From NCBI GenBank assembly GCA_019358835.1, contig JAHHIH010000008.1:62001-126000 (forward strand): DNA of 64,000 nt. Direction: 5' to 3'. The stretch comes from Tildeniella torsiva UHER 1998/13D. GTDB taxonomy: Bacteria; Cyanobacteriota; Cyanobacteriia; Phormidesmidales; Phormidesmidaceae. The stretch's first letter is position 1, and every line of letters starts with the position of its first letter. Below the pieces are notes generated by a model. It was given only the letters and a program-made list of their open reading frames with translations, was not told where the DNA came from and searched no databases. Both the position numbers and the translations under genes were made by a program. This document shows positions 3,696-58,066 of this stretch, one piece after another.

Positions 3696-3848
3696 TGCTC
3701 ACACCTGCCGCTTGATCGCTAAAGACTTTGCCAGAATAGCGGATTTTGCGGCTGAGAATGCCTACGAAAGTTGGCCCCAAAGTTCTTGAGGCGATCGCGC
3801 AAAACGGGTACTATCCTCTGCTAAGATATGAAACTGCGAATGCAGCAC

Positions 3849-3889
3849 GGGCGATTAGCTCAGTTGGTAGAGCGCCTGCCTTACAAGCA
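3849..3889 (+). tRNA. 5' half of tRNA-Val(UAC), gene interrupted
   Basis: GGGCGAT acceptor strand, then a D-arm GCTC...GAGC, an anticodon stem CCTGC and loop CTTACAA (anticodon TAC) are all intact. The 3' anticodon stem should continue GCAGG but reads GCAAC, and no variable loop, T-arm or 3' acceptor strand follows. I found no matching 3' half elsewhere in the window. The break is the likely left junction of an inserted element, or an assembly join. Confidence 0.75.
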
Positions 3890-18869: not shown

Positions 18870-19691
18870 CTTCCCACTCGCTGGGAAATTAATTGAATGG
18901 AAACGGGTGGCACCAAGCCGGGACCACATTGTGTGCGGTCTTCCCACTCGCTGGGAAATTAATTGAATGGAAACATCGTGGCGCCGGATGAGGCTCACCT
19001 CAAACTTTTCCACTTCCCACTCGCTGGGAAATTAATTGAATGGAAACCATCGCTCATCTTGGCTATTAGTACTTTAGAGGAAGTACTTCCCACTCGCTGG
19101 GAAATTAATTGAATGGAAACATTACTGAAGGTTTCCACTCGCTGCCAATCTCCGTCTTCCCACTCGCTGGGAAATTAATTGAATGGAAACGGGTAAACTC
19201 GCCGTCCGCGTCCACGGGAATTCCAACACTTCCCACTCGCTGGGAAATTAATTGAATGGAAACTCTTCGTTTGGCTCCTCCGCTGGTGGAGCCGGGGCTT
19301 CCCACTCGCTGGGAAATTAATTGAATGGAAACAGTTAGTCTGTTGAGGGTCTGGCGCTGGTTCCGGGTCCTTCCCACTCGCTGGGAAATTAATTGAATGG
19401 AAACCTCGCAGTGCCCCAAGAGATATAGGTAATACCTCCGGCTTCCCACTCGCTGGGAAATTAATTGAATGGAAACGCTTCATATTGAATACACATCGCT
19501 GCAACGAATCCGGCCTTCCCACTCGCTGGGAAATTAATTGAATGGAAACGCGGGAGAAATACAAATCCGACGCTCTTCAAACAACTTCCCACTCGCTGGG
19601 AAATTAATTGAATGGAAACTAACCTAAGCTTCTATCCTCTCAAGAGTTCATAAAATCTTCCCACTCGCTGGGAAATTAATTGAATGGAAAC
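18870..19691 (+). CRISPR. CRISPR array 1, 12 repeats of 35 bases
   Basis: The repeat is CTTCCCACTCGCTGGGAA plus ATTAATTGAATGGAAAC, 35 bases, with an internal TTCCCA/TGGGAA palindrome. Copies start at 18870, 18940, 19013, 19086, 19156, 19229, 19298, 19370, 19442, 19515, 19585 and 19657. All 12 look identical, giving 11 spacers of about 34-38 bases. The end TTGAATGGAAAC is like the cyanobacterial type III-B variant repeat (as I recall for Synechocystis CRISPR3), which sets the plus orientation. Uniform repeats suggest a recently active array. Confidence 0.98.
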
Positions 19692-21230: not shown

Positions 21231-22799
21231 ATGACTGAAGAGATCTATACAGCAATTAGCTTTGCTCCAGTACAGGGATTCATCGAAAAATCACGCAAAC
21301 TGCGCGATCTGTATGGGGCCTCCGGGCTGCTGTCATATCTAGCCGAAAGGCTCGTGGAGGCAACCCCCGCCAATTGCGAGGTGATTTCTCCAGCCTCGAT
21401 TAACCTGCAACGGGGCATGCCCAACCGCTTACTCATCCGCGGCGACTACCCACGCAACCTGGTCGAGCAAACCTTACTGCAAGCTTGGCAAAGGGTTTTA
21501 GACCAATGCCGTCAATGGGTTGAAACCCGCCTACAAGATTCGTTCCCCAGGGAGAGCTACCACTGGCAAGAGGTCTGGGCCAAGTGGGGTCGCTACCACT
21601 GGGAGATATTTTGGGGCCATGGCGATTCAATTCAAGCAGCCATGAAGGATTTAGAGACTCGTAAGCTTCGGCGCGACTGGGTGGCGGTGAACTGGGTAGG
21701 TGAAAGCTCTAGCTTATCGGGGGTAGATGCGATCGCCTGGCCGGGGCTAGGGGCATTGAACTCAAATCCTGGCTGGTCGTTATCGCCACCAGAACGGCAG
21801 CAGATGGAAAGCTTTTATGAGGCTTTGGCCGCACGACTGAGCAGTTCCAATGCCAGCAATGAGGACACTGTAGGCCGATTTCTGGCTACTAACGAACGAT
21901 TGAGCGTGCCCGAGTTAGTGAAACGGTTGGTGACCTGGCCTCAACTGGCCAGAGAACTGGGCATTAGCGAGCTAGAGAGTGGCTTTACTGATATCCATCG
22001 CAATACCCGCGATGGCAAGGGCCAGTGGACAGGTTGGTTTATGGGGGATGGCGATCACGTTGGCAATTACCTCCAAGACCAGTTGACGCCAATGGGTGAT
22101 GAAGCTGTACAAGGCTTTAGTCGGCAAATGCGGGAGTGGGGACAGAGCTTTAGCCAGTCTCTTTCTCGCGATCGCGGGCGGGTGGTCTATGCCGGTGGGG
22201 ATGATTTTTTAGGAGTCCTATACGGTCAAGCTAGCGATCGCCCCCTGCCCGCTAGCCAAGCGCTGGAGTGGCTCATGGGGCTAAACGCCCAGTGGCAGCA
22301 GCACGGCCACCCTATTACCGTCAGCGTTGGGTTTGTGTGGGTGTCACCTGATGTGCCGCAGCGAGATGTTTTACAGCACTGTCGCCTGGCTCAGAAGCGG
22401 GCTAAGCATCTAGGGCGCGATCGGGTCACGATTCGCATTGTGTTTAACAGTGGTCAGTTTGTGGAATGGACCTGCCGCTGGCTGGACTTGGATGTACTGC
22501 AAAGATACTGCGATCGCAACGGCATGGGCTGGGGCCACAACCCCAACTGGGCTCATATCTTTACCGACTGGGCTGAACTCAAAGCTCGCCACGCCATTCC
22601 CACCCGGCCTAACAATGCCGCTGGGGACAACTTAGCCGCGAACCTAGTGGCGATCGAGTTTTTCGACCTCTACTTCAAAGGCTACGGTCAGCGGTTGACG
22701 AACAATAGCGCCGCCATTCTCGGGTCTATGGACGACCCCCTCGCCCTGATCAACTGGATCAACGGTGCCATTCACACAGGTTGGTACCTGGCCGCATAG
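21231..22799 (+). CDS. cas10: Cas10/Cmr2 without HD domain, cyclase motif intact
   Basis: A 522-residue large subunit of a type III-B-like effector, well below the usual 800-1000. It starts directly in the first palm-like domain (ISFAPVQGFIEKSRKLRDLYGAS), so the N-terminal HD DNase domain is absent. FMGDGDHVGNYL lies in the first half, and the polymerase/cyclase motif is intact as YAGGDDF (G322-G323-D324-D325). From family knowledge this predicts cyclic oligoadenylate synthesis on target RNA binding, but no ssDNA cutting by this subunit. First gene of the plus-strand operon. Confidence 0.93.
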   Translation: MTEEIYTAISFAPVQGFIEKSRKLRDLYGASGLLSYLAERLVEATPANCEVISPASINLQRGMPNRLLIRGDYPRNLVEQTLLQAWQRVLDQCRQWVETRLQDSFPRESYHWQEVWAKWGRYHWEIFWGHGDSIQAAMKDLETRKLRRDWVAVNWVGESSSLSGVDAIAWPGLGALNSNPGWSLSPPERQQMESFYEALAARLSSSNASNEDTVGRFLATNERLSVPELVKRLVTWPQLARELGISELESGFTDIHRNTRDGKGQWTGWFMGDGDHVGNYLQDQLTPMGDEAVQGFSRQMREWGQSFSQSLSRDRGRVVYAGGDDFLGVLYGQASDRPLPASQALEWLMGLNAQWQQHGHPITVSVGFVWVSPDVPQRDVLQHCRLAQKRAKHLGRDRVTIRIVFNSGQFVEWTCRWLDLDVLQRYCDRNGMGWGHNPNWAHIFTDWAELKARHAIPTRPNNAAGDNLAANLVAIEFFDLYFKGYGQRLTNNSAAILGSMDDPLALINWINGAIHTGWYLAA

Positions 22800-22832
22800 C
22801 CCACCCAGCTCCCTCGCTGTTTCACACGCCCT

Positions 22833-23891
22833 ATGTTTACCCACATCATCACCATTTCCCCCTTGGGGTTTCTCTATGGCAGTGCCGGAGCCTTTTTGTC
22901 GCCAGAGAACCTGGTAGGGCGCTCAGGGGCCAAGTTTCCCCCCGATGCTGCCACCCTGGCCGGGCTCCTGTTCAGCGCCAACAAACACAGCGGTGCCCAC
23001 GACCAGGTCACCCTGCGAGATTCGCTGTTTTTGGCTGGGCCCTTTTGGGCCAACGTGGACGACCCCCATTATTTTTATGTACCCGTCCCGCGCCACAAAA
23101 TTCTTGGCAGAGACGACACCGACCAATGGGAGGTACGCAACTATCAGTGGTGGCGCGACGAGGCCGCCCACCCCGACCTGGAGGCCGACTACCACTGGCA
23201 GCGCATCGATACCTGGGACTACACCCCCGACGAAATCAAAGCTAATGGTGCCGCAGCCCAAGACCCCTGGACATTTTTGCCCCTGCTGCACCCCAGCCTA
23301 AAGTCTGATGAACGCAACGTGCGCGACGAAAATGGCCTGTTTTTAGAAAATGCGGTGCAAATGCTGCCCAACCAGTGGGACGGCAGCCAGGCTGAAACCT
23401 GCCTGGTCTACCTCTCTACGGTGCCCCTGGAAGACGGCTGGTACCGCTTTGGCGGTGAAAGTCACCTGGTCGAAGTCGCTAGCCACCCCATTGCCGACAC
23501 CAGCCCTATTGCCGAACTACTGCAACGCCCCATTGACCATGCCTTTGCGCTGTTGGGGCCAGGGCTGTGGGGCTCCACCCACCTATCGCTGCGCTACCCG
23601 CGCCACGCAGACTTTTCCGATCGGCGACCCATGATGTTGACCGATCGCCCCCAGCCCCATCGGTATCGTCTGGGCAGCCAAGCCAAGTCACCCCAGGGTG
23701 AGGCTCTTGCCCCAGCCGGGCGGCTGAGCCGTGGCCGCTACGCTGTACCACCGGGCACGGTGTACCTGTTTAAAGAAGCCATTGGCCGGTCTTGGTGGGA
23801 TTGGCCAGAAGCGTGGTTCCCCAAAGAAGGCTTTTCACTTAAACACCTGGGCTGCAACCTCTGCCTGCCCGTCGATATTTCCAGGAGCTAA
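22833..23891 (+). CDS. cmr3: Cmr3 RAMP protein
   Basis: A 352-residue protein starting at ATG 22833. N-terminal ISPLGFLYGSAGAFL and FPPDAATLAGLLFSAN correspond to the Cmr3 beginning (Asp-Pro-rich capping region and RAMP fold). C-terminal PGTVYLFKEA fits the family's glycine-rich strand. In Cmr complexes Cmr3 binds the crRNA 5' handle and Cas10. The next gene starts 4 bases after its stop. Confidence 0.85.
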   Translation: MFTHIITISPLGFLYGSAGAFLSPENLVGRSGAKFPPDAATLAGLLFSANKHSGAHDQVTLRDSLFLAGPFWANVDDPHYFYVPVPRHKILGRDDTDQWEVRNYQWWRDEAAHPDLEADYHWQRIDTWDYTPDEIKANGAAAQDPWTFLPLLHPSLKSDERNVRDENGLFLENAVQMLPNQWDGSQAETCLVYLSTVPLEDGWYRFGGESHLVEVASHPIADTSPIAELLQRPIDHAFALLGPGLWGSTHLSLRYPRHADFSDRRPMMLTDRPQPHRYRLGSQAKSPQGEALAPAGRLSRGRYAVPPGTVYLFKEAIGRSWWDWPEAWFPKEGFSLKHLGCNLCLPVDISRS

Positions 23892-23895
23892 CCCC

Positions 23896-24900
23896 ATGTA
23901 TTCCAAAGCCTACGGCATTATCAAAACCCTGGCCCCTCTCCATGTGGGCGCTAGCGCTGGTGAAGAAAGCGGCAACCTTAACCTGATCTTCCGCGACCAG
24001 TTTACTCAAACGGGTATTATCCCCGGTAGCTCTATTCGGGGCCGGTTTCGAGCCGATATGCGCAACAACCGCCAGGACTGGTTGGAGAGTCAGCTAGCCG
24101 ACCGTGGTATCACTGTCCCTGAAAATTTTGAGGAGATAACGCAGAATGCCCCATCAGGAGACCGCCAGCCTGATCGAATGTCGATATTGAAATGGCTTGA
24201 ACAGCAAGCTAAGCAGTGGGAGTCAGAGCATGAAGACTCTGATGCCTTTACGGTACCTGTCTCCTACAAAGAAAACCGTTGGTACGGCCACGAATCAGTT
24301 GATAATCAAAAAGATGGTGGCACTACAGAGGCGATCGTTAAGTTTGAGTATGCATCCCTAGTCTGGCTGCCTGTCTTCTGCCCAGGGCAGCCCATTGTCT
24401 GGGTCACCTGCCCCTACCTGCTCAAGCGCTACAAGCGGATTGCTGCGATTGCAGCCGATCTGCCGCTGCCCTACTCGGCCCCCAGCGGCTTGCAGGCTCG
24501 GCCCCTGGGCACAGGTCGCAAGGTGCTGTTCTTCAACCTTGGCTTTTTAGACATCGAGCACGAGGCGGATCTATCCCCCTGGGCAGCAGGGTTCGACATT
24601 GAGCACACCCAAACCGTGGTGGTAGCCGACAACGACATTGCCATTCTGCATGACATGGCCCTCTACCGCCAGAGCCGAGTCAAGCTGGTAGATGACATGA
24701 AAAAAGTGGATACCGACAAGGGAGCCTTTTTCAATGTCGAAGCCCTGCCAGAGGGCAGTGTGCTGGTCTTTCCCATCGCGCTCAAGCACACCGGGTGGCA
24801 ACCCTTTAGGCCAGCCACACCTTCCCAAGAACTCTATTTTGGCGGCCTAGAGTCTGTCGGTTTTGGCCGCTGCCAAGTCACCCTAGGAGGCACGTATTAA
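23896..24900 (+). CDS. cmr4: Cmr4 RAMP, backbone and target-RNA nuclease
   Basis: The track's start at 23731 lies within cmr3; ATG 23896 begins MYSKAYGIIKTLAPLHVGAS, the typical Cmr4 start, and gives 334 residues. The RAMP motif IIPGSSIRGRFRA is at residues ~41-53, and D34 (NLIFRDQF) is placed like the catalytic Asp in Cmr4 (D26 of Pyrococcus). The end GGLESVGFGRCQV is a second RAMP Gly motif. Several copies form the filament and cut target RNA every 6 nucleotides, according to family knowledge. Confidence 0.9.
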   Translation: MYSKAYGIIKTLAPLHVGASAGEESGNLNLIFRDQFTQTGIIPGSSIRGRFRADMRNNRQDWLESQLADRGITVPENFEEITQNAPSGDRQPDRMSILKWLEQQAKQWESEHEDSDAFTVPVSYKENRWYGHESVDNQKDGGTTEAIVKFEYASLVWLPVFCPGQPIVWVTCPYLLKRYKRIAAIAADLPLPYSAPSGLQARPLGTGRKVLFFNLGFLDIEHEADLSPWAAGFDIEHTQTVVVADNDIAILHDMALYRQSRVKLVDDMKKVDTDKGAFFNVEALPEGSVLVFPIALKHTGWQPFRPATPSQELYFGGLESVGFGRCQVTLGGTY

Positions 24901-24902
24901 TC

Positions 24903-25355
24903 ATGGCATGGAATTCCTACGGCCTTGATCGAGAGGCCCAAAAGCTGGTGTTGGCCGCTCGCCAGCGAGATGAAAAATTGCCCAAAGCAGAGCGTTCAAG
25001 GAAGGCATCGCTAAACCAGGGACACAAGATGCGTATGGCCGTTCCCTACGGCCTGGAACGGTTTTGGGGTGAACACCTGCGGCTCCAAGAGAAAGAAACG
25101 AATAAAGCTACCTACTGGAAAGAAACCTGGGAAGCATTTGTGCACATCATGGCTCGGTCAGGGGTCACAATACCCAACGACGCTGTTGGGTATTCGGATA
25201 CCAAGGCCATTCAGGCGATGTCTGAAAAGCTCTGGGTTTTAACAATCGATGACCAGCGATTGGCTCTGGCGGTGCTGACGCAGCTCTGTGATGCGGTGGT
25301 GTGGTGGACACAGCGGTACAAAGGAGGGGCAAAGCTCAATGACTCAGATTCCTGA
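24903..25355 (+). CDS. cmr5: Cmr5 small subunit
   Basis: A 150-residue all-helical protein 2 bases downstream of cmr4. Its position, length and C-terminal helix (ALAVLTQLCDAVVWWTQRYKGG) fit Cmr5, which lines the inner face of the complex. The N-terminus (LDREAQKLVLAARQRD) is rich in charged residues. It overlaps the next gene by 17 bases. Confidence 0.75.
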   Translation: MAWNSYGLDREAQKLVLAARQRDEKLPKAERSRKASLNQGHKMRMAVPYGLERFWGEHLRLQEKETNKATYWKETWEAFVHIMARSGVTIPNDAVGYSDTKAIQAMSEKLWVLTIDDQRLALAVLTQLCDAVVWWTQRYKGGAKLNDSDS

Positions 25356-27045
25356 TGCTTACCAAAAAGTGCCGATGATGTTTCGGGCACAGGTCGATGG
25401 CCGCTGCCAGCTCCAGCGTATCTATCCCGCTCGCACCAAGGCCCGTGAACCCCAGGATGTAGAACTGTGGGTCGATGAATGGGTTGGTGAGGCCAGCGAT
25501 CGCCCCCCAAACCTACCCACCACAGGCAATCCTCAACCCTACGAAATCAACTGGCGGTTTGTCACCAACGGCGGCCAAGACGACGGCATCATTCGTCCTG
25601 TGATCGGGGCTTACGGCTGGCCCTTCTACCCCGGCAGCAGCATGAAAGGGGTCTTTCGCGCCGTCTGCCGCGCCGTCTGCACCCCAGAGCAGACCGATCG
25701 CTACTGCGGCAAAGAACTCCCCGGCGGCGACTTTCAGCCCGGCATTTTGCGCTTCCACGGTGGCTACCCCACCAGCACAGACTGGACAGAAGGCTTGGTG
25801 GATATGATTCACCCCCAGCAAGAGCGCCAGGTGCAGCGCGAAAAACGCACCCGCGCCTTTGCCCAAATCTCGCTCCGTCAGCCCCATCTGAGGTTTGGCA
25901 TTTCGAGCACGGTGCCCCTAGATGCAGCGGAGTGGGAAACCGTTTGGCAACTGTGGGAAACCGCCCTCGCCAGGGGACTGGGCTGTCGGGTGAGTGCGGG
26001 CTATGGCCAGGTGGCAAATCACACAGGCGAGGTGTTGTTTCACTGCACCCTGCAAGGGCAGGGGCAGGCCGCCAAGCTGATTGACCAGTCTGGAGAATTT
26101 CGACCCAACATCTTTCGCGCGGCGCTGCGGGGCCATGCCCTACGCCTGTTCGGTGGGCTCACCTCTGCCGAGCAGGCAGAGCGGCTGGTTGACCAGCTCT
26201 TCGGCAGCGTGCGGGGGAGCGGCGATGTCGGGCTGCTGGCCATGAGCTTTCAGCCAGGGCAACTGACGATGGGACGCTATGGGCGCGATCGCTGGCAGCA
26301 GCCCACCTACGATGTCGAGGGCGACCTCTACTGGATGCTCAACCGCCCGCTAGACAACGTGGCCCAGCGTCAGGCCCTCAGTAACTTGGCCAGGGCGCTG
26401 ATGCACTTTGCCATGGTCTTCGGCGGGTTCGGCAAATCCTGGCGACGGGCCGACCACCGTTTGTTTCACAAGGACTACGCCGAGCTATCCAGCAAGCCCC
26501 TGATCGGCTGTCACTGGCAGTGGGGGGAAGAGTCTCTGACCCGAAATTACCAAGTGCGCAAGCTGGAGAGTATCCCCGGTTTTCTCAATGCTGTTAGGGC
26601 AGTGGCCCAAACCTGGGTGAACATGCAGACAGCCCCAACCAGAGATTGGGCGGCAACCTGGCGCGAAGCCTGGCACCCCGACAAAGTGCAAGTGTGGGGA
26701 CGGCTAGCCGCCCACGAAGACGACAGCATCGCCATTCATTGGCTGCACGGCCCCTATCGCAGAGCCAATCGTGACCTGGGATTATCAGAGGGGACGATCA
26801 AAAATACCTCCGTCACGGGTCAGATGGGCAAAATTGGGCGGCTGTGGCACCGCATGTATCCAATAGTGCAGCTAAAAAAGCGCAAGGACGACCCCACGGG
26901 CAAACCCTTTGCAATCACCCCCGCCAAGGGCCAGTACCTGGAGCTGCTGACCCTGTTTCCCGATCAGTCATCAGTGGAGTGTCGGCAGTTTCTAAAATTT
27001 CTACAAAACGAGCAACCCGACTTTGTCCAGCTCTGGCCTCAGTAG
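25339..27045 (+). CDS. Double RAMP protein, probable Cmr6-Cmr1 fusion
   Basis: ATG 25339 is chosen because AAGGAGGGGC lies 10 bases upstream; the track start at 25288 is inside cmr5. The 568-residue protein has two RAMP modules. In the first, YPGSSMKGVFRAVCR is near residues 97-111 and ALARGLGCRVSAGYGQV closes it, as in Cmr6. In the second, FRAALRGHALRLFGG near 259-272 is followed by LFGSVRGSGDVGLL, as in Cmr1. No separate cmr1 or cmr6 gene exists, so this chain probably fills both positions at the head of the complex. Assignment of the halves is inference. Confidence 0.75.
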   Translation: MTQIPDAYQKVPMMFRAQVDGRCQLQRIYPARTKAREPQDVELWVDEWVGEASDRPPNLPTTGNPQPYEINWRFVTNGGQDDGIIRPVIGAYGWPFYPGSSMKGVFRAVCRAVCTPEQTDRYCGKELPGGDFQPGILRFHGGYPTSTDWTEGLVDMIHPQQERQVQREKRTRAFAQISLRQPHLRFGISSTVPLDAAEWETVWQLWETALARGLGCRVSAGYGQVANHTGEVLFHCTLQGQGQAAKLIDQSGEFRPNIFRAALRGHALRLFGGLTSAEQAERLVDQLFGSVRGSGDVGLLAMSFQPGQLTMGRYGRDRWQQPTYDVEGDLYWMLNRPLDNVAQRQALSNLARALMHFAMVFGGFGKSWRRADHRLFHKDYAELSSKPLIGCHWQWGEESLTRNYQVRKLESIPGFLNAVRAVAQTWVNMQTAPTRDWAATWREAWHPDKVQVWGRLAAHEDDSIAIHWLHGPYRRANRDLGLSEGTIKNTSVTGQMGKIGRLWHRMYPIVQLKKRKDDPTGKPFAITPAKGQYLELLTLFPDQSSVECRQFLKFLQNEQPDFVQLWPQ

Positions 27046-27083
27046 CTTTTTCCATCCACCCCTTCACCAACATCTAACGCACT

Positions 27084-28529
27084 ATGGCCACCTGGATTTT
27101 GACCCTTGGCGACAGCGATGTTTTGCTCAGCACCAAAGCCCAGTGGAGCAGTTTAGAAGGGCCAGCAAAGGCTCAATACCCCGATCTGCTGCATTTCAAC
27201 GGCACTGAGGTGATCACAGCGGACAGCAAACGGCTGTACAGCTTTCCGGCACGGGCGTTGGGTCTGGTGTATAGCCCACAGCCAGAGCAGCATAGCGCCA
27301 CTCTGCGCTTTCCACGATTGGAAGCATTGGTTCAGCACCTCGCCCAGATCTCCACTCCGCCCCACCACATTGTGGTGCTGCTGACCGATCAATCCCTGTT
27401 GTTTGGCCCGAGCGATCGCCGCCTGCCCCGCTGTCCCTACTGGCGCGATACCTGCACCCTGGAACCACTGCTGCGGCACTTTCTCAGCCACGCCCTGCCT
27501 CGTGCCACTCAATCCTATTGCACCATTGCGCCCCTGTCCGACCAGCCTGGCCTAGACCACTGGGACAGTACGCTCTCGCTAATTCAAGCCTCGCTTGGCC
27601 AGGTAGACTGCACGCCGGGCAAGCCAGTCTTTGTAAGCCACCAAGCAGGCACCCCGGCGCTTTCATCAGCGGTGCAGTTTGTGACGCTGACCCGATTTGG
27701 GTCGCAGGTTCAATTTTTAGTCAGTAGTGAGTTTCAAGCAAACGCCTCAGAGCTAATCCCTAGCTCGACCTACCTGCTGGGCATTCGCCTGCAAGAAGCC
27801 AGGCGGCTACTACATCGCTACGACTATGCAGGTGTACAGGATGTGTTGAAGCAAGATTTGCCTGCTCTAGAACCAGCTGTGAGGCAGAGAATTGAGGGCT
27901 TACTCAACTCCGCCATTCTTTGGAACCAGGCCAAGTTTGCTGAGTTTGCTGCCTCACTCCAAGAAGCACCTGACAGAACGAAAGAGTGGTGGTGGGCGGC
28001 CTACGAGTCAGCTTTTTTGGCGTTGGTGCGGCTAGAACAGGGCAATACTGTAGAAGCTCTGTTCCATAGCTTTCGTGCGGCAGAAGGTATGTTGAGCGAC
28101 TGGGCTAAGTGGCGCTACCCAGAAGATATTAAGGCAAATAAAAAGGGTGCTCCGGTTGCCTTCCTACGAGAAGATAGTGGTTTACCTGCTTACTTGAAAG
28201 AAAAATTGGTAGGCGAAATTGATGGCCTGATGCTTTATAGCGGAGGATTATTTGAACTTTTTAGATCAGCTTGCCCAGCTGTCTCTGACAACGAAGACGT
28301 AAATGTCATCTGGAAAGGGGCCAGCAGCACAAGAAATCAGCAGTTTCATAGACTTTTAGGCTTAAGCGAAAAGGAAGTTTTTCGTTCTTGGGCCACTAAA
28401 GAAAATAAAGATGCTTGGCAGCAACGATTACTAAATTGTCTAAATTCTATTGCCAATCAGAACTTTGAATCTATTCAAGCAGCCAGCTTAATGGCAAATA
28501 TTCATCAGGACTTGAAAACTATTCTATAA
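27084..28529 (+). CDS. CARF-HEPN ribonuclease (Csx1/Csm6-like effector)
   Basis: A 481-residue protein, last gene of the operon. The N-terminal domain has CARF-like features: ILTLGDSDVLLS, strand HHIVVLLTDQS, and VSHQAGTPALSSAVQF around residues 185-200, which matches the ligand-loop GGTP-type motif. The helical C-terminal domain carries R417-N-Q-Q-F-H422, the RNxxxH catalytic motif of HEPN ribonucleases. From family knowledge, cyclic oligoadenylate made by Cas10 binds CARF and turns on nonspecific RNA cleavage. The 3' third is more AT-rich than the rest, hinting at domain exchange. Confidence 0.85.
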   Translation: MATWILTLGDSDVLLSTKAQWSSLEGPAKAQYPDLLHFNGTEVITADSKRLYSFPARALGLVYSPQPEQHSATLRFPRLEALVQHLAQISTPPHHIVVLLTDQSLLFGPSDRRLPRCPYWRDTCTLEPLLRHFLSHALPRATQSYCTIAPLSDQPGLDHWDSTLSLIQASLGQVDCTPGKPVFVSHQAGTPALSSAVQFVTLTRFGSQVQFLVSSEFQANASELIPSSTYLLGIRLQEARRLLHRYDYAGVQDVLKQDLPALEPAVRQRIEGLLNSAILWNQAKFAEFAASLQEAPDRTKEWWWAAYESAFLALVRLEQGNTVEALFHSFRAAEGMLSDWAKWRYPEDIKANKKGAPVAFLREDSGLPAYLKEKLVGEIDGLMLYSGGLFELFRSACPAVSDNEDVNVIWKGASSTRNQQFHRLLGLSEKEVFRSWATKENKDAWQQRLLNCLNSIANQNFESIQAASLMANIHQDLKTIL

Positions 28530-28564: not shown

Positions 28565-31846
<3,282 letters not shown>

Positions 31847-31991
31847 GTGGCGCAGGTCGCGCAGCTTGCGACTTGTCGCTACTGCTCCAGACAGAGTTAC
31901 CAAGGAACCAGTGAAGCTATGAATACTACACGCGTAGGCAGTTGAGATAATTTAAAGGAGCTGATGGGGGGTTGCTCTTGATGCCTCAGGG

Positions 31992-32336
31992 TCAGTCAAC
32001 GCCCCAATCGTCATCGCTCAGGCCATCCTCACCAGGCGCGGGCGCGAGCGTAGGTGTGGGTTGATGGATAACGGAAGGTACGGATTGGTTAGGAACCACC
32101 GTATGAGGAGCCATTTGAACCGTTGGGGCTGAGTCAGAGTGAGTGCTTGATTTCTGGATGAAGCTAATCAAAGCGTAGTTCAGCAGTTCAGAATCACTAA
32201 GAGCACTTCCAGCTTCGCCAAGAACCTCGCGGGCTTTAGCAATCAGTCCTTTTTGAGTCGAGACACGAACGGTGTTCCGTTCTACTCGCTTAGTGCTTTT
32301 TCTACGGGTTTTGGGCTTGGAGTTTGAAGTTGTCAT
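31992..32336 (-). CDS. ParR-like small DNA-binding partner of the ParM-like protein
   Basis: A 114-residue protein with a Lys/Arg-rich N-terminus (PKTRRKSTKRVERNTVRVSTQKG), then a helical region with ALSDSELLNYALISFIQ that could be a ribbon-helix-helix dimerisation core, and a disordered acidic C-terminus. Its ATG overlaps the ParM-like stop (TAATG). The order actin then DNA-binding adaptor is that of type II plasmid segregation operons. The family assignment rests mainly on context. Confidence 0.6.
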   Translation of the reverse strand: MTTSNSKPKTRRKSTKRVERNTVRVSTQKGLIAKAREVLGEAGSALSDSELLNYALISFIQKSSTHSDSAPTVQMAPHTVVPNQSVPSVIHQPTPTLAPAPGEDGLSDDDWGVD

Positions 32337-33382
32337 TATGCGGCCACCTTTTGGGATAGTTCTTGTGCAAGAGAGTGCAAACCTAGGGCATTCGCGAATT
32401 GGGGGTCAGAGACAGTCTTGAAGCCAAGACCTGAGGCCCATTCCTTAACCCCAGGAACGAGGGAGCCACCACCAGAGAGCAGTAGTGTCCGCCCAGGCTC
32501 GTTTAAGTAGCTAGCCGAGAGACTCTGGTGCAATTCGCTCTCCAGGCTGTTCAGCCAGCGGGTGACCACAGGTGCGATCACTTCGCGGCAGTCGAGTTTA
32601 ATCTTCCCTACGGTAGCGATCCCTTTGTTCTTGAGCATGGACATCAAACCCTCGTTAGACATGACCCGCGCGTAGTGGGGAGCCATAGCCGCATCAGAGC
32701 GAATAAGTGATTTCAATTCATTACAGACTGTCAAGTTCCCGAGCAAGGCTTTAACACCGCTATGAGGAAGCTCGATTACAGAATCAAGGGCAAGGCGCGC
32801 TTTGTTCATTGGAATTGCCAAAACAGTGCCGCCGCCAATGTCGAGAATGAAAGACTTTAATGGACGGTTGTCCTGTCCAAGGACAACTCCAGCGCTTTCG
32901 TAAACAACATTCAAAACGCTGATGCAGAAGGTTTTGGTTTCTTGTTTCTCATCATTTGAGGTATAGGTAACGCTATGGACGCCATCTAAACCATCTTTCA
33001 TAGCCTGACCGTAGGCACTTTTGTCATGGACACTGACTACGACCTTTAGGCAATCCCCATTCTGTATATATGGCCAGATTGCAGAGACTAGCATTGGAAA
33101 CGCATAACGAGGCTTGCCATTACCGCTGGGGTCACCCACGATTACCTGAAAGGGGTTGTAAACCGGATTCGTACTCCAAGATTTGAAAAACTCGCGGCTG
33201 TTATCCTTCTCAGGATCGGTGAATAGAGTGAAGCTATCGGAGCTCTCTTCCTGAACAATACTATTCTGGTCAGTAGCTAACGAGGAAGGAATAACAATCT
33301 TCTCTATCTTTCCGTCAAGTGTCTTAACACAGACTTTAGTCCAGTGGTTGCCAGGGTCGAATCCGATGATTAGCTGTTGCAT
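32336..33382 (-). CDS. ParM/Alp-like actin ATPase for DNA segregation
   Basis: ATG 33382 (MQQLIIGFDPGNHWTKV) is preferred over 33448 because the actin fold begins immediately and AGGA lies upstream. The 348-residue protein has the actin-superfamily signatures: phosphate-1 loop GFDPGNHWTK, phosphate-2 loop FILDIGGGT, and the adenosine motif LLLSGGGSLVPG. Plasmid and phage members polymerise into filaments that push DNA copies apart. Together with the coupled small downstream gene it points to a low-copy plasmid-like state. Confidence 0.8.
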   Translation of the reverse strand: MQQLIIGFDPGNHWTKVCVKTLDGKIEKIVIPSSLATDQNSIVQEESSDSFTLFTDPEKDNSREFFKSWSTNPVYNPFQVIVGDPSGNGKPRYAFPMLVSAIWPYIQNGDCLKVVVSVHDKSAYGQAMKDGLDGVHSVTYTSNDEKQETKTFCISVLNVVYESAGVVLGQDNRPLKSFILDIGGGTVLAIPMNKARLALDSVIELPHSGVKALLGNLTVCNELKSLIRSDAAMAPHYARVMSNEGLMSMLKNKGIATVGKIKLDCREVIAPVVTRWLNSLESELHQSLSASYLNEPGRTLLLSGGGSLVPGVKEWASGLGFKTVSDPQFANALGLHSLAQELSQKVAA

Positions 33383-33470
33383 TGAGTCTTGGTTCCTTTT
33401 CTGAGTTTTGCAGTTTACCGAGCAAGTTGCGGCGGTGTTGTGTTGCATGGCGGGTTTTGTTTTTGGTATA

Positions 33471-33525
33471 TCAACATTGGCCTTTTTGAACCATTGTTGT
33501 CACAATTGTACCAACTTTGGTTCAG
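33471..33525. repeat. CCAACTTTGG-type half-sites upstream of the ParM-like operon
   Basis: ATCAACATTGG, CCATTGTTG and TGTACCAACTTTGGTTC are three related sites spaced about 20 bases apart, directly in the promoter region of the actin operon. Matching repeats occur at 53.7 kb and 63.9 kb. In type II segregation systems the adaptor binds an array here (parC) and also represses the operon. Confidence 0.55.
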
Positions 33526-33547
33526 CAAGTCTGTTCAACTCGAGGTG

Positions 33548-33585
33548 TGAAAACCGAAGTATTTTGAGCAATTAAAACTTCGGTT
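33548..33585 (-). terminator. Intrinsic terminator ending the lysis-like operon
   Basis: Perfect 9-bp arms AACCGAAGT (33552-33560) and ACTTCGGTT (33577-33585) enclose an AT-rich 16-base loop. On the minus strand the stem runs into TTTTC. It separates the leftward lysis-like genes from the actin operon promoter. Confidence 0.5.
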
Positions 33586-33652
33586 CAGACTAGGTAGGTA
33601 ACTATTTAAGGAACGCTCTTCTATTGAAAATTTGAGAAGATGCCAAACTACT

Positions 33653-41453: not shown

Positions 41454-41672
41454 ATGGCTATCGATCCGTACAAACCAGAACTGGCAAAACGCCAGACAGC
41501 CTTTCAAATCGCCGCGAAGCAACTCATGGAGCGCTTAAACCAAAATGTCAGCCTGGCCAGTCAGGCTAAGCCAGAGTTTGTTGAAAATTTTAATGGCGCA
41601 TTAGAGGCGCTGCGGGATTATGAGCAGTCAGGTCGTGAGTTGGCTGAATGGATATCCCAGAAGAGTAATTGA
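41454..41672 (+). CDS. Small helical protein, unknown function
   Basis: Seventy-two residues from ATG 41454 with AAAAGGAAAAGACT upstream, a strong ribosome site. All helical (AKRQTAFQIAAKQLMERLNQNV). Likely a phage or plasmid accessory protein. No family recognised. Confidence 0.6.
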   Translation: MAIDPYKPELAKRQTAFQIAAKQLMERLNQNVSLASQAKPEFVENFNGALEALRDYEQSGRELAEWISQKSN

Positions 41673-41839
41673 TTGAAAGACCATTATTTGCGTTTTCGAC
41701 TTAGGTAACACCTCCTTTTTTGCATTTTTATCTTAGGTGGGGGGTGGGCGGCGGCGCTGGATTTAGCTAATATCGGCGCGCCTTCCTTGGCATCATTGAT
41801 TCGCTTTCGCAGTAGGGGGTGCGCAACGATAGTTCCGGT

Positions 41840-41868
41840 TAAAAATAAAAGGCCCCCTATCGGGAGCC
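41840..41868 (-). terminator. Intrinsic terminator of the ribbon-helix-helix gene
   Basis: On the minus strand GGCTCCC-GATA-GGGGGCC is followed by TTTTATTTTT, 25 bases after the stop at 41893. A very similar hairpin ends the polymerase gene at 43.1 kb. Confidence 0.85.
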
Positions 41869-41892
41869 TATAAAACATGCTCTGTATTTTTA

Positions 41893-42513
41893 TCAGGCCG
41901 CGTATTTTTCCCTCCACTCGGCTATTTTCTCCTTCAATTTGGCTGGATTATTACTGAACTGGGATTTGATGCTGTTAAGCTCCCACTCTTTCTTTCGCTC
42001 TAAATCCTCGTCGTATTCGTCGTCAAAATTACGCTCTGGTTCACATTCGTCGTCAGGGAAAGGGTTTTCGTCATCATTAAACTGAGCGTCTGGTTTTTGA
42101 ACCTGCTTAGCAATCCCAATCTCTCGCTGCATTCTCTCTCGGGATGGCGGTTCATATCCTGCGAGCCCTTCCTCAATAACAACAGGTCGCGGTCTTCTCG
42201 GCGGCGGTGTGTATAGAACAGCGTCGTCTTCATCATCATCTTCAAGCACGGGCGCTTTAGTTTCTTTAGCGGGCTCAGACTTAACCGCAGCTGCGGCCTG
42301 GGGAAGCTCAGGGGCTTCAAGCTGTACTGCGGGCAGTACAGAGGGTTCCTGTGTTGAAGCGGGCGTGGTGCCCTCGTGCGCTTCAACCTCCCGGCTCAGA
42401 AGGTAAGCAACGAAGGTGGAGAGGCTCATTTGCTTAGATGCCGCCAGTGATTTGGCTCTGGCCTCTAGGTCGTGGGTGAGGTACGCGGAGATTTTCTTTT
42501 TGTCAGTGGTCAC
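41893..42513 (-). CDS. Ribbon-helix-helix protein with acidic tail
   Basis: A 206-residue protein. The N-terminus (KKISAYLTHDLEARAKSLAASKQMSLSTFVAYLLSREVEA) reads as a CopG/Arc-type ribbon-helix-helix domain. A long Pro/Ala and Asp/Glu-rich linker follows, with RRPRPVVIEEGLAGYEPPSRERMQREIG and a C-terminal helix (SNNPAKLKEKIAEWREKY). The upstream region holds six TGGAGTTACT-like boxes, the expected target. Likely a partition, copy-number or early-gene regulator. Confidence 0.7.
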   Translation of the reverse strand: MTTDKKKISAYLTHDLEARAKSLAASKQMSLSTFVAYLLSREVEAHEGTTPASTQEPSVLPAVQLEAPELPQAAAAVKSEPAKETKAPVLEDDDEDDAVLYTPPPRRPRPVVIEEGLAGYEPPSRERMQREIGIAKQVQKPDAQFNDDENPFPDDECEPERNFDDEYDEDLERKKEWELNSIKSQFSNNPAKLKEKIAEWREKYAA

Positions 42514-42529
42514 AGGTCTACCCTTTTGG

Positions 42530-42692
42530 TGGAGTTACCTCCATTGTACCGTAAGTGGAGTTACTTTAACTCCATAGTGGAGTTGTTTCTATGCAACTTT
42601 ATTTGGCGGGGTGGTGGAGTTGCTTGAATAACTCCATACTGGAGTTACTTTAACTCCAGTATTAAAGCGTTTGGGGCCACATGGAGTTACTT
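42530..42692. repeat. Iteron cluster TGGAGTTACTT upstream of the RHH gene
   Basis: At least six copies of TGGAGTTRCTT begin near 42531, 42556, 42578, 42614, 42640 and 42679. Three are followed by the inverse TAACTCCA, making TGGAGTTACTTTAACTCCA palindromes. They lie directly upstream of a ribbon-helix-helix gene and about 450 bases from the end of the polymerase gene. This is consistent with an operator, a partition site or an origin. Confidence 0.8.
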
Positions 42693-42744
42693 TTCCGCAG
42701 AATCGCCGCAAAAACGGGCGGCTGGAGGGGTGGAAAACAGGTCG

Positions 42745-42919
42745 AATCGCTGAAACCCTTACACAGCAAGGGTTTTAGGAATCCCGCAATCCCAAAAACA
42801 GAGAATCCCTGAAACCCTTATATACCAAGGGTTTCAGGGATTAGCGAAGAATGATTTGCGGGATTTGGGAATTTTTGTTCATCGCCTGAAGCCCTTTCAA
42901 GGTAAGGGTTTCAGGGATT
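42745..42919. repeat. Three 39-base palindromes with 7-base loops
   Basis: Arms of 16 bases flank 7-base loops at 42745-42783 (loop ACACAGC), 42804-42842 (ATATACC) and 42881-42919 (TCAAGGT). The middle copy is perfect: AATCCCTGAAACCCTT and AAGGGTTTCAGGGATT. A fourth copy is at 57.93 kb and a partial fifth at 58.05 kb. They could be replication, regulatory or mobile palindromic elements. Confidence 0.85.
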
Positions 42920-43142
42920 TTATCTTATAGGTATTTCACTTACATAGTAATAGATAAATATTCCGTACACCATCACTTCCTCCTTTCATACCTACTTTCC
43001 TACCACTTTGTACAACCTGCAACGAGAAAATGTCAGCATAAAAAAAATGCCCCGACCCCAAGCCCCCCCCCAAAACACCCATAAAAAAAGACCCCCGTCT
43101 ATCGGGAGCCTTGGCGACCCTGTGTGAGCCCTGACGATAACG
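42920..43142. other. Intergenic region with polymerase terminator
   Basis: No gene supported. An AT-rich patch (42920-42970) follows the palindromes, and a poly-A/poly-C stretch (43040-43090) precedes the terminator. Together with the iterons this is the longest non-coding block of the phage-plasmid part, a candidate origin region. Confidence 0.4.
43083..43110 (-). terminator. Intrinsic terminator of the polymerase gene
   Basis: On the minus strand GGCTCCCG-ATAGA-CGGGGGTC is followed by a run of seven T, 33 bases after the stop at 43143. Confidence 0.9.
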
Positions 43143-45137
43143 CTAAGCAGCCGCGCGCTTCGCCAAGCATGCCTCCCAAACCCTAGTCCAATAGCCTGGC
43201 GGTTCAGTTTCCAATGACTCGTAAAAGCGCTCACCATCCCACTTCTCGTATACGACCAGGTCGTTTACTCCTAGATACGTGCGACCGTATATCGCTTTGC
43301 GCGGGTCTTTGTTCAGCTTCTTGTAGCGGCCTGAAGTTATCCATTTCGTCGCCAACATCTGGTTGCAGCGTGGCCCCCAGAATCTAGGATGCTTCAAAAA
43401 CCACAGCACCTCAGCCTCAAACTTGTGTTCGGGGTGATGTTGCTGAAGCCACTCATCACACTGCTCAAGTACTTCGTTAACGCGATCCATATGGACTGAG
43501 AGGGTAACACCGTCGTATTGATAGTTAATCAGGTGGACGTCATTGGCCTCAGAGATGATGTTGCTCGCTACGAATCGCTGCATCACCAGCTGCTCAGCCC
43601 CTTGCGCGAGGTGGGCTAACAGCTGGCCTGCTACTTTGGCTTGGTCAGGCCGGGTGTACTCAGCTCTCACTTCCTTAGCATGCTCCCTTAGGTTGAACGG
43701 GAGCCCGACAGCATTCTTGACCACCAAAGCGCGTTTGTTTGCAACCCGCTCCTCGATAGCGTCTAAGCTGTAATCCTGAAAGAAGCTTTCCCTCGCAGCT
43801 ACCACAGGGGCCATGAGAGGGCTAGCTAGAATATCAGCAATCTGCCGCTTAGAGAACCGGAAGTCCAGCCCCAGCTTCCCGAGTTTCTTATTGGTTTCGC
43901 GTCGTAGGCACTTCACCTGCATTCCAAAACAGAAAGCGTAAATCAACTGCTTCAACGCGGGTTTGCCTGTTCTTAAATCAAACCCTTCTGGTGCAATGTG
44001 CTCCCACAAAGATTTGCCACCGTGAATCACATCTAGCACCTGCTCTAGCGTTTTGGGACAGTCGAGAATCTGGGGTAGCGCCACCAGCTGACAGCTCTTG
44101 AGGTCGATATCGACCAGAACGTGATATGGGTGAGGTGTGCCAACCAGCAACCAGCGCAGGGCTTTTGGCAAGTTGACGATACCACCACCCTCGGGGTACA
44201 ACCGACCGCAGCTGGTCATGTGAACCGACCCTACGTATTGCTCTTCTAGGTTGATATCCAGCGTGCTGAGGGTTGCTAGCATGCTGGTCAGCTTTGCCAA
44301 GTAAGCCTTCTGTCCCTCCATCTTGTAATCCCAATCGGGGCAGTTCTCCATAGCCAAGTCGTGAATCCAACAGTGCAGTCTAAGGTAGGCCTGTTGCGTG
44401 TTCAGCTTGAACTTTGCACTAGCCAATTTCTCAGCTGCTTCGATCGTAAAAGGCTTTAAACGGCTCTTGTACTTAAAGTCAGCCGATAGGGGTGAGGGAT
44501 TGCTGTAGTCCTGCCGCGCGCTGATATCCTTATCCTTCCATCCTTCCTGGATTTGCTCTGCTAGAGCGCACTGGAGCCCCAAGATGTCGTACTCACGAGG
44601 CTGATGATATTTATAGGAGTAGGTCTCCACTTTAACCAACGGGATGCGCCCAAATAGCCTGGTTTCAACTTCTATTCGGGTCAAAGGTTCGATGACCTCC
44701 TGAAAGAAAGCCCCGCTCAGGTGCTGAATGCTGCGATTCTTCTTACAGGTTTTGTAGTCGTGGCCCGTCAGCTTACTCATTATTAGAGCGGCGGGAATCT
44801 TGTCTCGATAAATTAGGTCAGGAATTGCTACTTCATTCTGTCTGTATTGGTTGCAGATGAGACTCATTAGAATCTCACCAGCTACTCTGGCCAGTACATT
44901 GTCTCCATGACCATGCCTCTCGAACCAGCTACGCAGCAGCCGAGCGATGGGTGTCACACTTCTGTAGCCGATGTGCTGGCGTGCCTTAGGTTGAATCTCC
45001 TTTTTAGGCAAAGCGTCGATAGCGTCAACTGTTTTGGGACAAGAATCCTTGATGTTGGCTAGTTGCTCGTCTAATTTGCCTTTGCCGGTCGAGCTGGTCG
45101 TGGTATAATTGATTTCAGACATGATTGATTCGGTCAT
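43143..45137 (-). CDS. Divergent family A (PolA/T7-like) polymerase core, phage-plasmid replicase
   Basis: A 664-residue protein. Family A polymerase landmarks appear in order: MTSCGRLYPEGGGIVNLPKALRW (residues ~307-329, like TxxGRLSS...IPxxxR); motif A VLVDIDLKSCQ (D343, Q350); motif B KPALKQLIYAFCFGM (K396, Y400, G405); QGAEQLVMQ (512-520); and motif C NYQYDGVTL (D542), where the usual H-D-E is Y-D-G. No 3'-5' exonuclease domain is evident; the first 250 residues are unfamiliar. It is probably the element's replication polymerase, though a primase or transcription role is possible. Start ATG 45137 or 45122. Confidence 0.7.
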   Translation of the reverse strand: MTESIMSEINYTTTSSTGKGKLDEQLANIKDSCPKTVDAIDALPKKEIQPKARQHIGYRSVTPIARLLRSWFERHGHGDNVLARVAGEILMSLICNQYRQNEVAIPDLIYRDKIPAALIMSKLTGHDYKTCKKNRSIQHLSGAFFQEVIEPLTRIEVETRLFGRIPLVKVETYSYKYHQPREYDILGLQCALAEQIQEGWKDKDISARQDYSNPSPLSADFKYKSRLKPFTIEAAEKLASAKFKLNTQQAYLRLHCWIHDLAMENCPDWDYKMEGQKAYLAKLTSMLATLSTLDINLEEQYVGSVHMTSCGRLYPEGGGIVNLPKALRWLLVGTPHPYHVLVDIDLKSCQLVALPQILDCPKTLEQVLDVIHGGKSLWEHIAPEGFDLRTGKPALKQLIYAFCFGMQVKCLRRETNKKLGKLGLDFRFSKRQIADILASPLMAPVVAARESFFQDYSLDAIEERVANKRALVVKNAVGLPFNLREHAKEVRAEYTRPDQAKVAGQLLAHLAQGAEQLVMQRFVASNIISEANDVHLINYQYDGVTLSVHMDRVNEVLEQCDEWLQQHHPEHKFEAEVLWFLKHPRFWGPRCNQMLATKWITSGRYKKLNKDPRKAIYGRTYLGVNDLVVYEKWDGERFYESLETEPPGYWTRVWEACLAKRAAA

Positions 45138-45203
45138 TTCAGGAACCCATCCTTGAAGTTTTGACTTGTTGATTGTGTTGTGAGCGCAGTAAATTAATTT
45201 CTA

Positions 45204-45235
45204 AAAAAGCCGTTGTTTCCCGCAGCGGCTTTTTT
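45204..45235 (-). terminator. Bidirectional intrinsic terminator
   Basis: AAAAAGCCGTTG pairs with CAGCGGCTTTTTT, with one GU pair, around loop TTTCCCG. The T-run on either strand lets it end the 45.2-45.65 kb repressor transcript leftward. Confidence 0.9.
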
Positions 45236-45240
45236 GTTGC

Positions 45241-45444
45241 CTACCTATCGAAGGGCATTTGTGACCCGTAGGTGTGGTCAGCCTCGCGCTCGTATTGAAC
45301 TAAGAACGACGCTGGGCCATTGAGCAATTGCTCCAACTGAAGTTTTACTAATTCGACCTCGACTGAGACGATCGGGCGATCGCGGTAGATTGTCGTTGAT
45401 AACTCGTTTTGGCCTTGGCAGGCCGTTATTTCTGCGGTGTACAT
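45241..45444 (-). CDS. Small protein cotranscribed with Xre-type repressor
   Basis: Sixty-seven residues starting MYTAEITACQGQNELSTTIYRD, three bases after the repressor stop. It is beta-like at the start, helical in the middle (VEVELVKLQLEQLL). Unknown family. Possibly an antirepressor or accessory early protein. Confidence 0.55.
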   Translation of the reverse strand: MYTAEITACQGQNELSTTIYRDRPIVSVEVELVKLQLEQLLNGPASFLVQYEREADHTYGSQMPFDR

Positions 45445-45447
45445 GAT

Positions 45448-45654
45448 TTAGTCCTCGACTAATTCGAAAATGTCTTCAACTGAATTCAGATCAAAAGTTT
45501 TCTTTAGCGCGCGGTAAGTTTTAGCGCTAATTTGCTTGACAGGGCCTCTATAGAGTTGATAAACGGTGGGATGACCCAACCCAGTCTGATTGACAAACCA
45601 TTCTCGGTTGCGACCCACTGAGTCTAAATACTCTTTAAGTCTGCAATGAAACAT
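45448..45654 (-). CDS. Cro/C1-type repressor
   Basis: A 68-residue helix-turn-helix protein: LKEYLDSVGRNREWFVNQTGLGHPTVYQLYRGPVKQISAKTYRALKKTF. It lies at the boundary between leftward early genes and the rightward late operon, with a good promoter upstream, as expected for a phage repressor. Confidence 0.75.
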   Translation of the reverse strand: MFHCRLKEYLDSVGRNREWFVNQTGLGHPTVYQLYRGPVKQISAKTYRALKKTFDLNSVEDIFELVED

Positions 45655-45682
45655 TATTTAAACTTGTTAAATTCTTATTTCA

Positions 45683-45711
45683 ATTATACCTAAAAAAACT
45701 TAGGGAGACAA
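45683..45711 (-). promoter_or_regulatory. Sigma-70-type promoter of the repressor operon
   Basis: On the minus strand TTGTCT (45711-45706) and TATAAT (45688-45683) are separated by 17 bases, 29 bases upstream of the repressor ATG. Confidence 0.7.
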
Positions 45712-45823
45712 GCGTACTGCTTTAGCTTGCACACAACGAGGCACATTCTAGAAACTCCTAAGAATGGCCAGACAAAGCCCTCATTGATATGGAACCCTCT
45801 TTATAAGTTCCTGGCTATGAATA

Positions 45824-46216
45824 ATGACAAAAGTTCAACTCAAAAAACGAGAAGCCACGCGACGGCTCTTCCTTGAATATCTCAAAACCCCTAGCCTGCG
45901 GGAGTTAGCGCGCCGTTCTGGTATCGCCTACCGCACACTAGCTTATAGATTTCAACATCACATCCATCGAGATTACGCTGACCTAGTCCGGCGCGGAATC
46001 TTCGTGGTAATCAGACCTCACCTATTTTCTAAAAGCGCTCGGATTAGAGAACAAGTTTCTATTTGGTTAGTCGAAAATCTCGACTTAATCATACAGAACG
46101 AGGCTCATAGCTCGCGCGTTGTCTTCAGTGAAAAGAAATTAGACCGGCTTACCTATTCAGAATGCGGTCGCATCGGTGATTACCGAGACAACCTGCTGGA
46201 GGTACTGGCATGTTAG
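45824..46216 (+). CDS. Helix-turn-helix protein, first gene of the rightward operon
   Basis: A 130-residue basic protein. LKTPSLRELARRSGIAYRTLAYRFQHHIHRDYADL reads as a resolvase or Psq-type helix-turn-helix. Its position at the head of the late operon suggests a late-gene activator or terminase-associated DNA binder. It overlaps the next gene by 7 bases. Confidence 0.55.
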   Translation: MTKVQLKKREATRRLFLEYLKTPSLRELARRSGIAYRTLAYRFQHHIHRDYADLVRRGIFVVIRPHLFSKSARIREQVSIWLVENLDLIIQNEAHSSRVVFSEKKLDRLTYSECGRIGDYRDNLLEVLAC

Positions 46217-46620
46217 AGCCTCAAGTAGAAAATGACTATATATATATAGAGTCAGTCGAGCGGCAGTTATGTCCTTACATCAACCTGCTTGAACTCGAAG
46301 AGGCAATTGAGCTCTACTACGCTGGAAAGCTTAACGATGTGGATGAAGAGTACTTCGCGCGGCTCTACATGGAGAACTATCAGCTGATCCCTGGAAAGAC
46401 CTTGCTCTCCGTCTTAGACCAGGCAACTATGCGGGAAGCTCTCTACAAGTTAGACTTCATTCACAGATGCACTTTGAATGCCTGCTATGGCGACAGCGTT
46501 GTAGCGAACACTCAGCTCTCTAAGTTGGTTCCTCCTGGCATGCGCCTGAGTGATTATCAGAGCTACTTGTTGCCGCTTGCGATCAATCACCTTGCCTATG
46601 TCGTTCATCAAGTGATTTAG
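46210..46620 (+). CDS. Hypothetical phage protein
   Basis: A 136-residue acidic, helical protein (LEEAIELYYAGKLNDVDEEYF) translationally overlapping the preceding gene. No family recognised. Upstream of terminase small subunit. Confidence 0.55.
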   Translation: MLEPQVENDYIYIESVERQLCPYINLLELEEAIELYYAGKLNDVDEEYFARLYMENYQLIPGKTLLSVLDQATMREALYKLDFIHRCTLNACYGDSVVANTQLSKLVPPGMRLSDYQSYLLPLAINHLAYVVHQVI

Positions 46621-57928: not shown

Positions 57929-58066
57929 ATAGGCTTGAAAGCCTTATATAGCAAGGGTTTCAGGATTCAAATTGGCCACCCAAATATATTGACTCTTCCG
58001 TACTCTAAAGGAGTCAGTTAATCTAACAAATAAACAAATGGCCGCTAAAACCCTTACATATCAAGG
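57929..58066. repeat. Copies of the 7-base-loop palindrome before the inserted regulator
   Basis: CTTGAAAGCCTT-ATATAGC-AAGGGTTTCAGG lies at about 57933-57964. A shorter copy ACCCTT-ACATATC-AAGG lies at 58050-58066, inside the first codons of the next gene. Arms and loop length match the three palindromes at 42.7-42.9 kb. Confidence 0.75.

Follow-up and report, generated by a model that had tools for sequence, protein, structure and literature searches.

A TGGAGTT box array as the probable autoregulatory operator of an RHH gene in the replication module of a tRNA-integrated cyanobacterial element

CopG, the RHH protein of the plasmid pMV158, represses its own promoter, to which it binds at a single 13-bp pseudo-symmetric element in the cop-rep operon. 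For ORF56 of the Sulfolobus plasmid pRN1, binding to its own promoter and a role in setting the copy number have likewise been proposed; the minimal replicon of this plasmid consists of the RHH gene, a polymerase-type replication protein, and an origin formed by a stem-loop 3' of the gene for this protein (PMC3869888). PrpA of pMBL6842 represses its own promoter, binds the origin iterons, and lowers the copy number (PMC7848731). The nearest analogue among partition systems is omega/parS of pSM19035, in which iterated short boxes, arranged as 7-10 contiguous heptads, extend over the promoters (PMC4498918). The regulator and operator proposed below are of this ordinary, known kind (CopG, ORF56, omega); their setting, a poorly described replication module, is unusual.

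The window, i.e. the whole analysed stretch of 64,000 nucleotides from Tildeniella torsiva UHER 1998/13D, is part of the chromosomal contig C37 (221,895 bp; genome size 5.84 Mb). A 78-bp repeat, 99% identical between its two copies, borders a segment whose flanks are contiguous in the relatives G025, G004, G012, and G018, which indicates that 69,701 bp have been inserted in the anticodon arm of a tRNA-Val(UAC) gene (Table 1). A search of the contig for a tyrosine integrase was negative. Besides the RHH/polymerase module and a ParM/ParR-like pair, the element carries virion genes, a type IIG restriction enzyme, and the genes and arrays of a type III-B CRISPR system. The CRISPR arrays are located at 18870-19691 and 28565-31850, and the type III-B genes (Cas10, Cmr6, and Csx1-like) at 21231-28529. 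An IMG/VR entry (UViG 3300037860_000063) was discarded as independent evidence, since it is 100% identical.

Within 42530-42692, the box TGGAGTTA occurs ten times if a single mismatch is allowed (six times on the plus and four times on the minus strand), and the array begins 17 bp before the GTG start codon of the RHH gene. The boxes mostly form inverted pairs, use both orientations, and are irregularly spaced. Exact TGGAGTT sequences start at 42530, 42556, 42578, 42615, 42640, and 42682, and exact AACTCCA sequences, marking minus-strand boxes, at 42568, 42630, and 42652; the box arm with one mismatch, TACCTCCA, lies at 42536-42543. Two of the pairs are copies of the same perfect 19-bp palindrome. 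The nine exact 7-mers span 159 bp, compared with a maximum of two per 165 bp in order-2 Markov resamplings of the window, and no other 7-mer of the window exceeds five copies per 165 bp (CRISPR arrays excepted), making the TGGAGTT cluster the densest. When 386 cyanobacteria were scanned for the pattern TGGAGTTRNNNYAACTCCA, the source genome alone had two sites; among the viral contigs listed, nearly all had a single site. The gap between the RHH gene and the polymerase gene measures 629 bp, with the boxes filling the RHH-side half and three palindromes (42744-42918) the polymerase-side half. The original prediction of densely packed direct TGGAGTTRCTT boxes, some fully palindromic, in about 160 bases before an RHH gene is thus borne out, and the 400-base block that they were said to form with the adjacent palindromes is real. 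The term iterons, also used there, is an interpretation and not something observed.

Table 1. Coordinates of the attachment repeats, genes, boxes, palindromes, and hairpins of the element, numbered from the first letter of the window
Feature	Position	Strand	Remarks
Left attachment repeat	3812-3889	+	Promoter and 5' half of tRNA-Val, 78 bp
Right attachment repeat copy	73513-73590 (window-equivalent)		L018 9513-9590; intact tRNA there
ParR-like and ParM-like (ALP_N) pair	31992-33448	-	31992-32336 and 32336-33448; separate segregation candidate
144-bp block	41676-41819		Conserved in G012, G022, and G016; duplicated in G022, flanking an RHH-like gene
Terminator-like hairpin	41850-41869	-	Just past the RHH stop codon
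RHH protein gene	41893-42513	-	206 aa; N-terminal RHH domain of ~46 aa (predicted) and acidic tail with EDDDEDDAVLYTPP
Box pair 1	42530-42543		TGGAGTTACCTCCA
Possible -10 hexamer	42543-42548	-	TACAAT, with a box pair on either side; spotted by eye, absent from promoter scan calls
Box pair 2	42556-42574		Perfect palindrome TGGAGTTACTTTAACTCCA; 8-bp arms, centres 11 bp apart
Single box	42578-42585	+	TGGAGTTG
Box pair	42615-42636		TGGAGTTGCTTGAATAACTCCA
Perfect palindrome, second copy	42640-42658		TGGAGTTACTTTAACTCCA
Single box	42682-42689	+	TGGAGTTA
Palindrome 1	42744-42782		CTGAAACCCTT-7 nt-AAGGGTTTTAG; kept in G012
Palindrome 2	42803-42841		AATCCCTGAAACCCTT-7 nt-AAGGGTTTCAGGGATT; outer C-G pair changed to G-C on both arms in G012, palindrome kept
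Palindrome 3	42880-42918		Kept in G012
Terminator-like hairpin	43088-43112	-	3' of the PolA-like gene
Divergent PolA-like polymerase gene	43143-45137	-	664 aa; candidate replication protein of the element

None of the Pfam, NCBIfam, and PHROG families names the protein encoded upstream of the first hairpin as RHH above its cut-off; the sub-threshold scores were 17 bits for DUF6364 (cut-off 27.3) and 13.6 bits for HicB (cut-off 21), with none in NCBIfam and PHROGs. The assignment comes from an AlphaFold (AF2) model of the first 52 residues, built with 23 relatives (pLDDT 86.7), in which helices span residues 13-25 and 30-46 and the N-terminal strand is unassigned in the monomer. Foldseek matched this model to StnY, CopASO, ORF56 of pRN1, CopG, ParG, and Arc with probabilities of 0.97-1.00 and E-values of 0.05 or worse, which are as modest as expected for a length of 50 residues. 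A profile of the RHH relatives also matches ORF56 and CopG. Thus, as modelled, the protein has a MetJ/Arc-type RHH fold (beta-alpha-alpha, ~45 residues). Beyond this domain it is acidic and of low complexity.

The RHH gene is probably an isolated, monocistronic transcription unit. It is bracketed by terminator-like hairpins, and its promoter should therefore fall within 42514-43087. The consensus promoter scan called none inside the box array; the boxes fill the region upstream of this isolated unit, where they may overlap the promoter in the manner of CopG/ORF56-type operators. Co-transcription with the replication gene, as in the CopG and ORF56 systems, is not seen, since a hairpin separates the RHH gene from the polymerase gene. 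A role of the RHH protein as an antitoxin was rejected, because a terminator-like hairpin directly after its stop codon leaves no apparent toxin gene in the same operon; PrpA, in comparison, is an antitoxin with a ParE toxin, and no co-transcribed toxin gene is apparent here.

Taken together, the array, the predicted RHH fold, the predicted isolated unit, the co-variation of boxes and RHH gene, and the conservation of the palindromes (both described below) make it probable that the TGGAGTT array is the autoregulatory operator of the RHH gene, situated inside the replication module of the integrated element. RHH dimers would bind the 8-bp boxes, with each inverted pair or 19-mer holding two dimers one helical turn apart. 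By filling the array, they would cover and silence the promoter of their own gene. Such negative autoregulation is the most economical reading, both binding and repression being inferred. CopG, ORF56, and PrpA suggest by analogy that the protein probably also restrains replication or expression of the module, copy control or repression of replication being the plausible next step, while its conserved acidic tail may contact another protein of the element. The regulatory role that the original prediction had considered is supported in that the boxes occupy the only possible promoter region of the monocistronic gene and co-vary with it in relatives. The locus differs from that of CopG by its ten boxes, the long acidic tail, and the separate polymerase unit. 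In pRN1, orf56 and orf904 are co-transcribed with the RHH gene first, and orf904 encodes a primase-polymerase, whereas here the polymerase is of the PolA-like type and the RHH gene, located downstream of the palindromes, forms a separate unit.

The co-variation is seen best in one of the two genus-mates, Leptolyngbya sp. FACHB-60 (G012) and Nodosilinea sp. LEGE 07298. On contig 84 of the former, the gene order is as here, with insertion sequences in between, and the module comprises a CRISPR array, ParM/ParR-like genes, a 72-aa ORF, the RHH gene, a box array, the three palindromes, the PolA-like gene, and HTH genes. Upstream of its RHH gene, in the same position, TGGAGTT is absent and an array of GTGTATA is found instead (seven boxes with at most one mismatch; matched by none of 60 shuffles); the arrays of both genomes exceed all 60 shuffles. 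Absence of the boxes from relatives that keep the gene, which the original prediction had counted against itself, therefore holds literally in this strain, but different iterated boxes replace TGGAGTT there. The two RHH proteins are weakly related (BLAST E = 0.12). Between their tails, the similarity goes beyond composition (score 73, against a mean of 36 and a maximum of 61 in shuffles), and both contain the motif EDDDExDxVL[YF]TPP.

Two more distant RHH genes were included in the comparison. The closest other RHH protein by direct search is encoded on a 2.9-kb circular plasmid of G010 (its ends repeat), which contains TGGAGT just twice, both copies inverted and in the RHH promoter; a third relative, in G004, has four GTTCCA sites upstream. 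The G010 plasmid (contig 499, L021) is complete; besides the RHH protein, it encodes a putative replication protein and a second protein of the RHH/CopG-like type. Each tested RHH gene is accompanied by its own boxes (nine TGGAGTT in T. torsiva; five TATACA and two GTATAC in Leptolyngbya sp. FACHB-60; four GTTCCA in G004; two TGGAGT in G010), and no array among these four holds the boxes of another. Taken alone, the array tests of G010 and G004 are not significant. A 6-mer array test on 32 RHH relatives was mostly negative, with a minority significant at 0.05, so array operators are no rule of the RHH family; among further RHH relatives in the order, the four loci with a scored upstream region contained no significant arrays. 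It follows from the comparison that the boxes go with the RHH gene and the palindromes with the polymerase, i.e. that there are two cis modules. The argument from co-variation rests mainly on the one close orthologous pair, together with the two more distant genes, and the few copies of the module, all in one genus, are too few to show that the exchange of RHH gene and boxes is general.

It is conceivable, if tentative, that in a modular replicon whose polymerase is exchangeable as well (family B in G022), specificity resides in an exchangeable cassette made up of the RHH gene and its boxes. The protein tail, the palindromic origin candidate, and the position of the polymerase would then have been kept, while the DNA-binding face of the RHH protein and the whole box array would have been swapped or rapidly diversified. 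If so, co-resident elements would not repress or exclude one another. This seemingly exchangeable arrangement is the interesting part of the locus. T. torsiva and Leptolyngbya sp. FACHB-60 provide a natural pair in which RHH protein and binding-site set changed together and the neighbouring cis-elements stayed, so that a change of RHH-DNA specificity and replicon incompatibility become directly testable. The regulator-plus-operator pair is placed in the replication module of largely undescribed tRNA-integrated, CRISPR-bearing, phage-like elements of filamentous cyanobacteria.

The boxes might instead be origin iterons, bound by the initiator of the element (the PolA-like protein or another), with the RHH gene just adjacent. 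They lie between the RHH gene and a polymerase gene that has plasmid-borne relatives, and RHH proteins such as PrpA do bind origin iterons and thereby limit replication (PMC7848731). An iteron origin, however, should be conserved along with its replication protein, and Leptolyngbya sp. FACHB-60 has retained the polymerase and the palindromes without the TGGAGTT array. It is the palindromes, not the boxes, that are conserved at fixed spacing: all three measure 39 nt, they are 59 and 77 bp apart here versus 60 and 77 bp in that strain, and the block is 70% identical over an alignment of 206 bp. Nor did the GC-skew check that had been suggested favor an origin at the boxes, as the cumulative skew reaches no minimum around 42.6 kb and, after detrending, is close to its maximum there. 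Origin iterons are accordingly a doubtful explanation of the boxes. An origin in the block, as originally proposed, is at most plausible: the boxes are not conserved in a relative that keeps the module, and the neighbouring palindromes are. Since they follow the polymerase and are kept in sequence and spacing, the palindromes are more likely the better origin candidate and, rather than the boxes, the place to seek an origin.

With similarly low probability, the array could be the parS-like centromere of an RHH partition protein (compare omega of pSM19035 and ParG), its boxes doubling as operator. The combination of an RHH protein with an iterated-box promoter corresponds to the parS arrangement of pSM19035 (PMC4498918), and the folds of ParG and CopG both match the RHH model. 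The boxes, however, are spaced inverted pairs and not contiguous heptads, and the RHH gene looks monocistronic. Omega has an obligatory ParA partner (delta), whereas the ParA-type motif KGGxGK is absent from the ORFs of more than 100 codons in the 69.7-kb element (three control plasmids were positive), for which reason a ParA partner was rejected. The ParM/ParR-like pair, 9 kb away, has its own small protein and lacks a TGGAGTT array. Partition by the TGGAGTT array is therefore unlikely, and the earlier reading of the block as a partition site is not supported. Of the two separate candidate systems for segregation or regulation that the element was said to have, the second is the ParM/ParR-like pair.

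Several HTH genes lie nearby, and the boxes would serve another regulator of the element if one of these proteins (Cro-like or other, 45-46 kb) bound them. This is improbable, given that the Cro-like/HTH genes are common to Leptolyngbya sp. FACHB-60 (73% DNA identity over 45190-46278) while the boxes changed completely, and that the boxes of the RHH homologue on the G010 plasmid resemble the TGGAGTT boxes. A functionless short tandem expansion is very improbable: slippage can produce repeats of a single motif, but the irregular spacing, the use of both orientations, the perfect palindromes, the exact placement in the promoter region, and the fact that Leptolyngbya sp. FACHB-60 has another array in this position all speak against it.

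The polymerase, for its part, matches no Pfam, PHROG, or NCBIfam family. In its alignment with the proteins of G012 and G016, three blocks (DLKxxQL, K-x(n)-YG/FG, and YDGxT) look, by inspection, like the family A polymerase motifs A, B, and C. PolA-like relatives occur in G012, G016, and G035, as well as on complete 24-kb and 31-kb plasmids of Synechococcus elongatus, where they adjoin ParAB. The pMAS-type 24-kb plasmids of this species (pMAS: PMC9239245) resemble the element in their PolA-like relative (26-34% identity), segregation genes, and CRISPR-Cas, and they have no annotated replication protein; they differ in that they encode ParAB and not ParM/ParR, show no RHH array, lack virion genes, and are not integrated. 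On two of them (L093 and L094), the PolA-like relatives, annotated as hypothetical, are the only evident replication-protein candidates. No relative of the RHH protein or the polymerase was found among INPHARED phages. In a related element of G022, a family B DNA polymerase (L078 9611-12481) takes the position of the PolA-like gene and adjoins a different RHH-like gene, which is flanked by two copies of the 144-bp block.

With regard to the palindromes, their interpretation as a dispersed host repeat was rejected, because the strict form occurs at one site of the genome. At 57935-57963, in an intergenic gap among virion genes, the CTGAAACCCTT palindrome recurs a fourth time in degenerate form. 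Rfam returned sub-threshold microRNA and sroD matches only, which arise from the hairpins and were rejected as chance. On a 208-kb viral contig (L058 7547-7589), a perfect palindrome with 18-nt arms lies 60 nt 3' of another PolA-like gene, and its loop of 7 nt has the length of those in the window. Both G012 and G022 keep the 72-aa ORF (MAIDPYKPEL..., 41454-41672) beside the module, and in G018 it is found elsewhere in the chromosome. Finally, GGTTCA/TGAACC sites occur upstream of the ParM-like gene (33449-33600) together with an inverted repeat of 34 bp; this region may be the parC of the ParM/ParR-like pair.
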